A stretch of 37,317 nt of DNA from Glycocaulis sp. (lineage in GTDB: Bacteria; Pseudomonadota; Alphaproteobacteria; Caulobacterales; Maricaulaceae): assembly GCA_022565665.1 (NCBI GenBank), contig JAIUMI010000022.1:1-37317 (forward strand), given 5' to 3'. The translations under genes were made by a program, and so were the position numbers. Below are positions 31,551 to 36,666 of the stretch, in pieces (positions within the stretch are counted from its first letter, which is position 1; the number at the start of each line of letters is the position of its first letter). A model generated the notes under the pieces. The model was not told where the DNA came from. It saw only the letters and a list, made by a program, of their open reading frames with translations, and ran no database searches.

Positions 31551-31585
31551 ATCAAAGCCCCTTGCCTGTATTAGCCAACATGAAA

Positions 31586-31630
31586 CGGGCCGCACCCCGT
31601 CCCGGTGTCACCGGCTTGGTGTGCGGCCCG
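31586..31630 (-). promoter_or_regulatory. Long hairpin upstream of sseA
   Basis: CGGGCCGCAC (31586-31595) and GTGCGGCCCG (31621-31630) form ten perfect pairs, and the loop carries a second dyad CCGGTG-T-CACCGG (31602-31614). On the minus strand only TTT follows, so it is a weak terminator at best. It lies between a 30-codon ORF and the sseA start, 36 bases away, and could be an attenuator. Confidence 0.6.
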
Positions 31631-31657
31631 CGCAGAATGTGAAGCCGTTTCAGGCTA

Positions 31658-31750
31658 TTATTCGGTGCTCGAGACCCTCACCGAAGGCTGCCCCGGTGAC
31701 CGGAAGCCGAGCACCCCTGATACGGACACTCCAATCATTCCACTGATCAT
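31658..31750 (-). CDS. 30-residue ORF with an exceptionally strong ribosome site
   Basis: ATG 31750 is preceded, seven bases away, by AGGAGG within AGAAAGGAGGTGATCC (31767-31752), which is complementary to the last 16 bases of alphaproteobacterial 16S rRNA. The peptide (starting MISGMIGVSVSGVLGFRSPG and ending SSTE) is 30 residues with seven serines, has a hydrophobic first half, and is not related to any family I know. It is followed by a long hairpin and then sseA on the same strand. It could be a leader peptide, a membrane-active peptide, or a precursor peptide. The match to the 16S 3' end could also be a decayed rRNA fragment. Confidence 0.5.
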   Translation of the reverse strand: MISGMIGVSVSGVLGFRSPGQPSVRVSSTE

Positions 31751-31820
31751 CGGATCACCTCCTTTCTCGTTGCTGACAACAGATATGAGGCTGTGCTGCG
31801 CCGCGCGAACCGTCAAGAAT

Positions 31821-32195
31821 CTAATTCACGGCGCCCATATGCTTGTCGAGCAGAACCTTGAGATCTTCAGGCGTCATCAGGTCGAGCTTGGCAAACGGGC
31901 CGACGACCCGTTTGTAACGGGAGAGATCCACCTTCTCGAAGGTATGCGCCGTTACCAGCAGGATCACTGCATCGCCCGCAGCAGGCGCCACGAGCGGCAG
32001 GGTCTCGTCAAAACTGGTGTAGGGCGGCAGGCGGCGATCCAGAAAGATCAGGTTGAAACGCGCGCGCTCTGCCTCACGCAGAAAGTCGCTGACCGAGAGG
32101 AAGGACTCAACTTCAACCTCGTCAAACACTTCGCTCATCAGGATGGACAGGATATCGGTCTCGACCGGATCATCATCGATGATGGCGACGGCTAC
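31821..32195 (-). CDS. Stand-alone receiver domain, reached by -1 shift from kinase
   Basis: The receiver domain reads from VAVAIIDDDPVETDIL through FLDRRLP (phosphoacceptor Asp, residue 53) to VTAHT and GPFAKLD, ending at TAG 31821. The acidic triad IIDDDP is upstream of the first ATG (32138), so a product starting there would lack beta-1 and the metal pocket. Between the previous in-frame stop (32273-32271) and these residues there is no ATG, GTG or TTG. The frame is instead -1 relative to the kinase, joined at A-AAG-GGG (32201-32195) just before the kinase stop. The coordinates given begin at GTA 32195, where the shifted frame continues. Either frameshifting, a rare start codon, or a base change in the G run is involved. 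Confidence 0.7.
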   Translation of the reverse strand, partial: VAVAIIDDDPVETDILSILMSEVFDEVEVESFLSVSDFLREAERARFNLIFLDRRLPPYTSFDETLPLVAPAAGDAVILLVTAHTFEKVDLSRYKRVVGPFAKLDLMTPEDLKVLLDKHMGAVN

Positions 32196-35100
32196 CCCTT
32201 TCTCGCGGGCGTTCTCCGCCCGGCTGTCTTCTGTGTCAGACGCGACAATGCGCCTCGCAAGGCCTCCAGATCAACCGGTTTGGCCAAATATTCGTTAGCG
32301 CCAGCTTTCAGACATTGCTCGCGGTCCTGGGAAGAGGCGTGCGCCGTCAAGGCCAGGATCGGCACCCGGGCGCGCTTTTTCCTGGCGGCGCGTATCTCGC
32401 GCATCGCATCAAGGCCCGACAGGACAGGCATGGAGACGTCCATGATCACGACATCGAAATCACCCGACAGCGCCGCGTCGACGGCCTTGCGGCCATCGGC
32501 CACGCATACCGGCTCTCCAATGCCCAGCTCCTGCAGGAACATGATCAGCGTTTCGCGGTTGGTGGCGTTGTCCTCCGCCAGCAAGACCCGCAGACCAGCC
32601 TCCTGTCCGGCCACAGCCGGGCCGGAACCGGGCGCGGGGATGGCCTTTTCCATCTCCGCAGGGGTGAGCGGCACATCAAGGCGGAAGCGTGCGCCCTTGC
32701 CCGGCTCGCTATCCACGCTGACATCGCCGCCCATCAGCGTCGCAAACTCCCGGCACAGGGCAGGGCCGAGGCCTGCGCCCTCGTGAGCGCGCGAGAAGGA
32801 GGCGTCCACCTGCCGGAACCGGTCGAATATCAGTTGCTGCTGCTGGGCCGATATGCCGGGGCCCGTGTCCGCGACTTCGAAGCGGATCACACCCCGCTCC
32901 CGCGCGCTGACCGTGAGCGTCACCGAACCGGACGGCGTGAACTTCACCGCATTGCCCAGAAGATTGATCAGCACCTGGCTGAGCCGGCGCCGGTCCGCCT
33001 GAACCGCGGCTGGCACGGCCGCGTCGATCTCGAAGCCGAGCGCCAGCCCCTTCTCCCGGGCCGCAGCGGTGACCGAGGACAGCGCCTGCTCGCACACCGC
33101 GCGCAACTCCACGGTTTCGGGCTCCAGCACCATCAGGCCGGCCTCGATCTTGGAAATGTCCAGAATGTCGTTGATGATCCCCAGCAAGGCCCGGCCCGAT
33201 GACTGCACCGTATCAATCATCTTCTGCTGGCGCGCGTCCAGCGTGGTTCTGGCCAGCAATTGTGACATGCCCAGCACGCCGTTGAGCGGCGTGCGGATTT
33301 CATGGCTCATATTGGCCAGGAATTCCGATTTCAGCCGGTTGGCTTCTTCCGCCTCATCGCGCGCGATGCGCAAGGCCTCTTCGGACCGCTTGCGCTCCGT
33401 GATGTCGCGCAACACGCCAAGCCAGTGGGTGTGACGGCCGTCCGCATCGACAACCGGAACCGTATCGACATCCATCCACCGCCCTTCGCCGGATTTCGTG
33501 TAGTGCACGATCTCGGTGCGCATCGGCAGTGCAGCCCTGAACGCGGCGAATACTCTGGCAAGGGTCTCCGGATCGGTTTCCGGCCCTCGCAGAATACTCG
33601 TGCCGCGGCCAATCGCCTCGGTGCGGGAATAGCCGAACACGCGCTCGAACGCGTCATTGACATAGACAATGCTCGGCCCGTCATCGGTGATTTCGTTATC
33701 CGTGATGATGACCACGTCATTGGCCCGCGCGACCGCCGCTTCGAGCAGGTATAGCTGCTGGCGGGCTTCGCGCTCCTGCGTGATGTCCTGGAAATAGACG
33801 GCAAGCACTTCGCGTCCGGGATGTGCCTGAAGGCGGAACCAGGCCTGCATGGGCTGGAACCAGAACTCCAGCTTCTGGGAGGTGCCGGTAGCCATCGCGC
33901 TTTCATAAGCTGCCCGAAGCGCTTCTGGCGGGCTCTTGGGGAAAATATCCCAGACATACCGGCCCAGAAGGTTGTCGCGCTCGGTACGCAACAGCCGCTC
34001 GGCCTCGTCATTCACGAAAGTGAAGTGCAGGTTCTCGTCCAGCAGGTAAAAGCCATCGCTCATTGAGTTGAGCGTACGCCGCAGGCGCTCGGCCATCTCC
34101 TCGCTTTCCTGACGGGCCGCGATCAGTTCGCTGACATCCTGAAACGCGCCGCGCACGCCCACTATGCGGCCGCTGGCATCACGCTCCGCCTCGCCGAGCG
34201 TCCGGCACCAGATCCGGCGGCCCTTCGCCGTGATGAGTGTGAGCAACTCGTCATACGGTTCCCCGTGGTCCACACAACTTCTGAAAACCTCCCGGATACG
34301 GTCGATGCTTTCAGGGGCGTAGAAGTTGATGCCGTCCTCGATCGGGACTTCCCGCACACCCGGCAAATCGTGGATCTCCGCCACCTCCTCGGACCACTCG
34401 ATGACGTCATTTTGCAGATCGACGCGCCACGCGCCGAAACGCGCAGACTTGCCGGCAAGACGCAGCAGATTGTCTGCCTCGTTCAGCCTCGCATCGGTTT
34501 CCAGCTGTCCGGTAATGTCCTGAACGAACCCGGTCGTCACCTCGCCTTCCGGTGTGGCAGCGCGCTCGGCCACACCGCGCACCGTGATCACACGCCCGTC
34601 CGGCCGGACAACGCGGTGCCAGAATTCGTAACTGCTCGCGCCCGATGACAGGAAATCGGCAAACTGGCGTTCCATCCGGGGCCGGTCTTCGGGATGAACA
34701 ACACTTACATAGAGATCGTAGTCGAGCTCGTGTTCGTCCGGATCCAGCCCGTACATGCGAAACGTGCTGTCCGACCATTCCAGCTTCTGGGTCTGCAGAT
34801 TGAACCGCCACTGCCCGAGTGCCAGCAGGCGCTCGGCCGTGCGGATGCTCGCCTCGCGCTCTTTCAGCCTGAGCGTTGCCTCGCGCAGCTCGCGCGAATG
34901 CATGACCAGCTCAAGCTCCAGGGGACGGTCCTTGATGTTCGCCTCAATAGCGCCCGGATCGCCTCCTCCGCTCTGGACCAGTGCCGTTACGTCCTCGGAC
35001 CGGCAGATGATGTAGCTGATAGTACCGTCCGGGGCCTTAATCGCCGAGACCACGCCGATCCACCAGCGCTCCTCCATCCCTCCGCCCTGGTCGGCAGGCC

Positions 35101-35797
35101 GCTCAATGGCATAGCGTGTAATGGGTATCGCTTCGGGCAGACCGGTCGCCTTCACCTTGTCGAGCAAGGCCTCGATCACCTTGCGGCCCTCATCTTGCCC
35201 CTCATCGTCCGCGCCGGGAAACAGGTCGAATAATGGCCGCCCCATGATCTCGGAGCGCTTGCGCATGACCGCTTCAAGATACTGGTCACTGATGGCGACG
35301 ACCCGGTATTCGTCCGGTTCCAGCACGAGAAACTTGCTCGGGGCCGATTCAAACAGGGACTGGAAGTGGAAAGCCGCCGCCTCGGCCTGGTTGCGCAGCC
35401 TTTCCTCGCGTTTCAGGAGTGCGGCGCGTTCGCGTTCAAACTCCACGCTGGCGGTCACATCGCGCAACACCGCGAGCTCGCACGCCTTGTCATCATAGGT
35501 CAGCGTATGGGAGGTAACCTCCGCAAGAATGATCTCGCCGGGTTTTGAAAGCGTGGTCCAGACGCCTGCCCGATCAAGACCTTCCGTAACGGCCGCCACG
35601 TTTGAAGCCAGCCGCTCCAGCTCCTCAGGCGTGTGCAGATCATCCAGACGCAGCTCACCCAGTTCGCCCTGTGTATAGCCGTAGCGTTCCGTGAAGGCGT
35701 GGTTCACGACGAGAATGCGCCGGGTGGCGAGCTCGTAAATGAGCATCGGGTCGGGATGATTCTCAAAGAAGATATCGCGGGCAAGCTCTGTGCTCAT
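32192..35797 (-). CDS. Multi-PAS hybrid sensor histidine kinase
   Basis: This 1201-residue protein has no signal peptide or membrane helix and should be cytoplasmic. It carries six PAS domains: about residues 10-120, 150-270, 325-435, 450-560, 580-690 and 700-815. Then come a HisKA domain with NMSHEIRTPLNG (H832), a HATPase with the N-box LINLLGNAVKF and the G1 box DTGPGI, and a receiver with acidic pair ED in LLAEDNA and phosphoacceptor D1120 in IMDVSMP, with K in LAKPVD. The G2 region reads GAGLGPALC where GxGLGLA(I/L) is usual. It probably relays phosphate to its own receiver and to the receiver protein encoded directly downstream. The signals sensed are unknown. Confidence 0.94.
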   Translation of the reverse strand: MSTELARDIFFENHPDPMLIYELATRRILVVNHAFTERYGYTQGELGELRLDDLHTPEELERLASNVAAVTEGLDRAGVWTTLSKPGEIILAEVTSHTLTYDDKACELAVLRDVTASVEFERERAALLKREERLRNQAEAAAFHFQSLFESAPSKFLVLEPDEYRVVAISDQYLEAVMRKRSEIMGRPLFDLFPGADDEGQDEGRKVIEALLDKVKATGLPEAIPITRYAIERPADQGGGMEERWWIGVVSAIKAPDGTISYIICRSEDVTALVQSGGGDPGAIEANIKDRPLELELVMHSRELREATLRLKEREASIRTAERLLALGQWRFNLQTQKLEWSDSTFRMYGLDPDEHELDYDLYVSVVHPEDRPRMERQFADFLSSGASSYEFWHRVVRPDGRVITVRGVAERAATPEGEVTTGFVQDITGQLETDARLNEADNLLRLAGKSARFGAWRVDLQNDVIEWSEEVAEIHDLPGVREVPIEDGINFYAPESIDRIREVFRSCVDHGEPYDELLTLITAKGRRIWCRTLGEAERDASGRIVGVRGAFQDVSELIAARQESEEMAERLRRTLNSMSDGFYLLDENLHFTFVNDEAERLLRTERDNLLGRYVWDIFPKSPPEALRAAYESAMATGTSQKLEFWFQPMQAWFRLQAHPGREVLAVYFQDITQEREARQQLYLLEAAVARANDVVIITDNEITDDGPSIVYVNDAFERVFGYSRTEAIGRGTSILRGPETDPETLARVFAAFRAALPMRTEIVHYTKSGEGRWMDVDTVPVVDADGRHTHWLGVLRDITERKRSEEALRIARDEAEEANRLKSEFLANMSHEIRTPLNGVLGMSQLLARTTLDARQQKMIDTVQSSGRALLGIINDILDISKIEAGLMVLEPETVELRAVCEQALSSVTAAAREKGLALGFEIDAAVPAAVQADRRRLSQVLINLLGNAVKFTPSGSVTLTVSARERGVIRFEVADTGPGISAQQQQLIFDRFRQVDASFSRAHEGAGLGPALCREFATLMGGDVSVDSEPGKGARFRLDVPLTPAEMEKAIPAPGSGPAVAGQEAGLRVLLAEDNATNRETLIMFLQELGIGEPVCVADGRKAVDAALSGDFDVVIMDVSMPVLSGLDAMREIRAARKKRARVPILALTAHASSQDREQCLKAGANEYLAKPVDLEALRGALSRLTQKTAGRRTPARKG

Positions 35798-36608: not shown

Positions 36609-36666
36609 TGGTGCGGGCGGCCGGAATCGAACCGGCACGGAGGTTGCCCTCCAACGGATTTTAAGT
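36609..36666 (-). other. tRNA-Leu(UAA) 3' half: attachment-site remnant
   Basis: On the minus strand this 58-base segment reads ACTTAAAATCCG (the anticodon loop with UAA), a variable arm GGAGGGCAACCTCC, a T arm GCCGGTTCGATTCCGGC, acceptor strand CGCCCGC, and ACCA. These are tRNA-Leu positions from the anticodon stem to the 3' end. The 5' half (acceptor GCGGGCG, D arm) is absent to the right. An element that integrates by site-specific recombination in the tRNA anticodon loop would leave just such a copy, with the rebuilt intact tRNA at its other end. The break at 36666 is therefore the junction. Confidence 0.85.

Follow-up and report, generated by a model that had tools for sequence, protein, structure and literature searches.

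In this genome a stand-alone receiver gene follows a hybrid histidine kinase gene without any ATG, GTG or TTG from which an intact receiver could start, and this missing start codon, not the slippery-looking heptamer beside it, is the real anomaly at the junction. We tentatively explain it, with slightly less than even confidence, as an ordinary kinase–receiver pair whose receiver ATG was lost in one lineage, the receiver probably still being made by re-initiation at GTA or at another near-cognate codon. The window, that is the whole stretch of 37,317 nucleotides analysed here, is an entire contig (C22) of a 2.74 Mb genome available as a draft assembly of 31 contigs. The features that matter for the argument are the following.

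32192..35797, minus strand: hybrid histidine kinase of 1201 aa, with several PAS domains, HisKA, HATPase_c and a C-terminal receiver.
31821..32195, minus strand: stand-alone receiver of 124 aa if counted from GTA, read in the kinase's -1 frame, with its stop at 31821.
32195..32201, minus strand: AAAGGGG, a heptamer of the form X_XXY_YYZ that can also be read as a Shine-Dalgarno sequence.
32193..32195, minus strand: GTA, candidate non-NTG initiation codon, in a 4-nt overlap with the kinase stop (GTAG).
32247..32249, minus strand: ATT, a second and weak near-cognate candidate in the receiver frame.
32214..32217, minus strand: GGAG, spotted by eye 12 nt ahead of the heptamer; a putative Shine-Dalgarno-like frameshift stimulator.
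32136..32138, minus strand: first ATG of the receiver frame, residue 20 of 124.

The Pfam matches of the kinase comprise PAS families, HisKA (residues 823-887), HATPase_c (935-1045) and Response_reg (1071-1184). On the minus strand its 3' end reads AGA AAG GGG TAG, with the TAG at 32194-32192, and the receiver opens in the -1 frame with GTA(32195) GCC GTC GCC ATC ATC GAT GAT GAT; the assembly gives the junction as AAAGGGGTAGCC. This arrangement had been described in an earlier sequence-only reading of the same DNA and is confirmed on the sequence, as is the form of A_AAG_GGG, which is indeed an X_XXY_YYZ heptamer in the zero frame ahead of the zero-frame stop. The same reading had stated that the receiver frame lacks a usual start, and a codon list showed zero ATG, GTG or TTG codons between the stop TGA at 32273-32271 and the ATG at 32138. 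Near-cognate codons in the receiver frame before this ATG include ATT 32249, GTA 32195, ATC 32183 and ATC 32180. The ATT at 32249 stands in the context GCATTG, which is kinase coding sequence common to the four congeners that carry the gene pair.

We found that the part of the receiver frame ahead of ATG 32138 is truly coding, as had been claimed; both the codon differences and the first strand of the AlphaFold model bear this out. In the 18 codons from 32192 to 32139, the window differs from each of the four congeners by 4-9 synonymous and 2 non-synonymous codon differences, showing conservation at the protein level, and the rest of the receiver shows 26-38 synonymous and 35-38 non-synonymous codon differences against each of them. 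The AlphaFold model of the receiver translated from GTA has a mean pLDDT of 91.7 and places beta-1 at residues 2-6. The earlier expectation that a start at ATG 32138 would cut off beta-1 thus agrees with the model, in which most of alpha-1 would be lost too, and because of the loss of beta-1 we reject this ATG as the start of a working receiver. The residues D7-D9, D53 and K103 are invariant in 10 of 10 aligned receiver sequences, the proposed phospho-Asp53 among them. Judged by their titles, the best PDB fold matches are receivers or receiver-containing proteins, with TM-scores (query) of 0.57-0.76 among the 50 PDB matches listed. By model and alignment, the protein is predicted to have a receiver fold with the acidic pair, the phospho-Asp and the Lys. 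An alpha-4 helix is expected between the fourth and fifth strands of receivers. In the model this interval, residues 83 to 96, is free of helix, and the Pfam Response_reg match of the stand-alone receiver (E 5.8e-05, 23.7 bits) lies under the curated cut-off of 30.2; for these two reasons we call the receiver divergent.

The relatives have ordinary starts. A search of 61 genomes, own included, returned 15 with a receiver match at E <= 0.001. Four of five congeners possess the receiver orthologue, and all four keep the order kinase, receiver, sulfurtransferase, nitronate monooxygenase, with kinases 63-67% identical to that of the window. In the fifth, G004, no receiver matched and the kinases were all distant, the best reaching 41% identity across part of the query, so this genome is uninformative. 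The receivers of the four other congeners use an ordinary ATG (first residues MGQA...), placed 8 codons ahead of the position that GTA 32195 occupies in the alignment. The distance from kinase stop to receiver ATG is 11, 32, 21 and 0 nt in these genomes, and the receiver stands in the -1 frame relative to the kinase in two of them and in the zero frame in the other two. The genome also has a paralogous pair on contig C17 (L030, G000 contig C17, 12500-18500: a hybrid kinase of 1047 aa and a stand-alone receiver of 123 aa, 35% identical), in which the receiver ATG lies 5 nt after the kinase stop. Elsewhere in the family, in G026 and on contig C5 of G009, the receiver ATG shares 1 nt with the stop codon of a preceding frame that has a receiver-like end, while the homologues on contig C1 of G009 and in G014 start at ATG with no such frame directly upstream; on G009 C1 a 329-codon frame ends 78 nt upstream of the receiver, and GTG and TTG precede the ATG taken. 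All nine other aligned receivers start at ATG (the one on G009 C1 chosen below GTG and TTG), and in the alignment GTA 32195 stands opposite the start codon, ATG, of the receiver from G014. The seven other pairs have their own receiver ATG in 7/7 cases, 0-32 nt behind the upstream stop or in 1-nt overlap with it, with the -1 relation in 5/7 and the zero frame in 2/7; two of the upstream frames are known only as receiver-like-ending. There is no fused kinase-receiver-receiver homologue among these seven pairs, the four congeners included. The alignment of 10 sequences omits seven weaker matches (E 9.7e-7 to 9.1e-4), and in six of those, all but L016, beta-1 contains or is preceded by an ATG, GTG or TTG.

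Two other parts of the window deserve mention in their own right. Between receiver and sulfurtransferase lie about 270 nt (31551-31820, minus strand), where in the congeners the two genes are almost adjacent. By eye, this gap contains a 30-codon ORF (31661-31750) behind a strong Shine-Dalgarno-like stretch and then a G+C-rich inverted repeat. Searched against 41 genomes, the peptide of this ORF matched nothing in the five congeners and gave six weak matches in other genomes (E 0.011 to 1.11), and a DNA search with 31551-31820 returned, besides itself, short chance-like matches only (E 0.17 or worse). At 36609-36666 (minus strand) we noticed a tRNA-Leu(UAA) gene of which the 3' portion is present, 58 nt with one mismatch by eye to G. 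albus L018, and the 5' half is replaced by A+T-rich DNA that continues to the contig end at 37317. An incomplete survey of the tRNA genes of this genome returned no tRNA-Leu(UAA). From its sequence, the partial gene resembles an attachment site at which an element has integrated, the rest of that element lying beyond the contig end.

How the start codon was lost can be approached from the junction itself. Measured from the last conserved kinase codons to the receiver core, it spans 57 nt in the window versus 78, 96, 85 and 91 nt in the four congeners, and is thus the shortest of the five. The stretch AAAGGGGTA, which contains AAAGGGG, is identical to the Shine-Dalgarno stretch just before the ATG in G002 (AAAGGGGTATTGAATG); before the ATG, G005 has GGAAAGGG and G003 has GAAAGG. 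The longest junction stretch in common with G002 is 9 nt, the best of the four congeners, a length that was reached by 63 of 2000 shuffled versions of the window's junction. Only the pairwise alignment with G002 sets AAAGGGG opposite the Shine-Dalgarno. Aligned with G001 it falls opposite the first codons of the receiver, and with G003 and G005, the latter giving the best score, GAAAGGGG is found opposite GAATGGGG, that is the ATG GGG of these congeners (the AATGGGG start region). MAFFT in turn aligns GCG GAG AAC GCC with ATG GGR CAR GCN, so that GCG replaces ATG. In every one of these alternative alignments the ATG is gone. A deletion from just after the Shine-Dalgarno into the first codons of the receiver would yield the sequence of the window, a path to which these comparisons lend modest support. 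The AAAGGGG may accordingly be a remnant either of the old Shine-Dalgarno, as G002 suggests, or of the old start region, as G003 and G005 suggest.

The following course of events would account for the junction. In the ancestral state the receiver would have started at its own ATG, placed after the upstream stop or overlapping it by 1 nt, and would presumably have been translationally coupled to the kinase. A small rearrangement at the junction would then have removed this ATG in a single lineage, leaving the AAAGGGG remnant joined straight to the receiver core. Ribosomes stopping at the TAG (32194-32192) would now start afresh on the GTA that overlaps it, or on another near-cognate codon, and -1 slippage on A_AAG_GGG, if it happens at all, would be a minor by-product. 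It counts against this proposal that a start at GTA would be unusual, that the alignments disagree about the origin of AAAGGGG, and that on the window branch the receiver outpaced the kinase (see below); in its favour, the receiver core is intact and retains 12 of 12 columns that are invariant in the other nine sequences. We think re-initiation at GTA the likeliest route because the G014 receiver has its ATG at this alignment position, because two homologues overlap the upstream stop, and because there is precedent, in that PMC6728339 describes termination-reinitiation as demonstrated at overlapping gene pairs in E. coli and Haloferax. The sequence-only reading had offered programmed frameshifting, a rare start codon, or a fault in the four-G run. 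Its start-codon alternative fits best. Relatives have an ordinary ATG, and an NTG start is absent here; that GTA is the codon actually used is what we infer.

Programmed or otherwise useful -1 frameshifting before the TAG, which would make a minor kinase-receiver-receiver fusion, appears improbable to us. The heptamer does have the right form and stands in the right frame directly before the stop, with the GGAG upstream of it, and the tRNA set is compatible with slippage. Among 38 Rfam tRNA matches in the genome, an incomplete survey with no tRNA-Trp among them, the sole lysine tRNA has the anticodon UUU, and tRNA-Gly(CCC) is present. G001 and G003 also have tRNA-Lys(UUU), and a pattern that also fits CUU found no tRNA-Lys(CUU) in these two or in the genome under study. 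In PMC5009743, a review, a sole tRNA-Lys(UUU), E. coli-like, is tied to shift-prone AAG. Against our prior expectation, the tRNA findings do not weaken slippage. The -1 relation of 5 of the 7 other pairs can also be counted in its favour, although every one of these has an ATG of its own. The relatives, however, do without any shift, the four congeners and the paralogous pair having their own ATG, and the site together with the need for it is conserved in 0/4 congeners. In-frame A_AAG_GGG occurs once (the junction itself) in 45,921 zero-frame sites of 132 ORFs of the genome, versus 1.03 expected; because this count matches chance, the heptamer alone is weak evidence. X_XXY_YYZ heptamers within 12 codons of an ORF end number three in the 132 ORFs, junction included. 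RNA folding without pseudoknots gave z values of +0.83 and +0.52 just after the stop and of +0.48 and -0.38 over wider stretches, and with all folds inside the range of shuffles we reject a downstream stem-loop as stimulator. As a test of frameshifting it had been proposed to look for an ordinary start in relatives at the equivalent of 32195, and this is essentially what we found, the ATG lying 8 codons upstream of the GTA-aligned position. Conserved frameshifting is rejected on the ordinary ATG of the congeners and on their mixed -1/0 frame relation. Low-level slippage is physically possible and shows no sign of use. That the receiver, having lost its start in a single small rearrangement, is now made solely as a minor frameshift-dependent kinase-receiver-receiver fusion seems to us less probable again. 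Transcriptional slippage on the A3G4 run as the source of such a fusion has a negligible chance: a short homopolymer is present at the junction, but the A3 and G4 runs fall well short of the lengths known to slip, and we reject it for this shortness.

Two further accounts, each unlikely in our estimate, concern the sequence itself and the fate of the gene. An error of sequencing or assembly, or a mutation found in this strain alone, could lie at the junction, while the species has an ordinary start or a single-frame kinase-receiver-receiver fusion. The anomaly does rest on one draft assembly, and the nearest comparisons are congeners with 63-67% kinase identity. The sampled assembly is otherwise clean, however, the four-base run is short, and 0/4 congeners have a fusion. 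We compared the frames of 135 genes with those of G003 (31 from the window and 104 from 200 kb of C1; GC3 >= 0.70, 70% of length covered). Nine of the 135 were flagged and none has a frame break in the gene body: seven have stops in the first 25%, likely from over-long starts in the comparison, one is a tandem duplication, and in the ninth the first 42 residues lie in another frame. A systematically poor assembly is rejected on this survey; a single error at the junction, although frame errors do not abound in the part sampled, is still a minority prospect. Alternatively, the receiver could be at the start of decay, being untranslated or giving a broken product from ATG 32138 only, which we rate as no better a prospect than a fault. 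Relative to the kinase, the receiver evolved faster on the branch of the window: hand sums, over trees that differ in shape, give 0.697 for the window branch versus 0.442 for the other branches together in the receiver, and 0.519 versus 0.747 in the kinase. This could reflect relaxed or altered selection. Additionally, 16 of 92 positions invariant in the four congeners are altered in the window receiver, where like tests on each congener gave 0/76, 1/77, 0/76 and 4/80, an excess that is partly due to the longer branch. Against decay stand the open frame, the 12 family-invariant positions kept and pairwise dN/dS well under 1 (dN 0.25-0.30, dS 0.95-1.55 against the congeners), from which any loss must be recent. 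These dN/dS values and the retained positions also tell us that selection has acted on the receiver through most of its past.

If the receiver is still made, as re-initiation after start loss would have it, the junction offers a natural example in which a conserved bacterial gene has outlived the loss of its NTG start, and it would test how far termination-coupled re-initiation or slippage can reach as a gene rescue. If it reflects a sequence fault or early decay, the case is ordinary. It is also a caution that slippery-looking heptamers between genes can be remnants or look-alikes of a Shine-Dalgarno or a start region.

Known systems resemble the junction in part. Non-canonical start codons occur, for example the AUU of infC, and such genes share with the receiver a conserved coding sequence without an NTG start; here the candidate codons, GTA and ATT, are confined to a single genome, and initiation there is what we would predict. 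Frameshifting of the dnaX type has an upstream Shine-Dalgarno and a 3' stem-loop. The junction shares with the dnaX site, A_AAA_AAG as given in PMC5009743, the X_XXY_YYZ form, a putative Shine-Dalgarno-like GGAG upstream and a tRNA-Lys(UUU) as the sole lysine tRNA found. It differs in its heptamer, A_AAG_GGG, in having no 3' structure above chance, in that a shift is unneeded in congeners, and in a downstream gene that is normally self-standing. Pairs of a hybrid kinase gene and a stand-alone receiver gene with stop and start adjacent or overlapping, for which termination-reinitiation coupling (PMC6728339) would be the model, are matched in strand and in gene order. What sets the junction apart from them is that its overlapping codon is GTA and not NTG and that the kinase stop is TAG, where a 4-nt overlap with an NTG start would require TGA.
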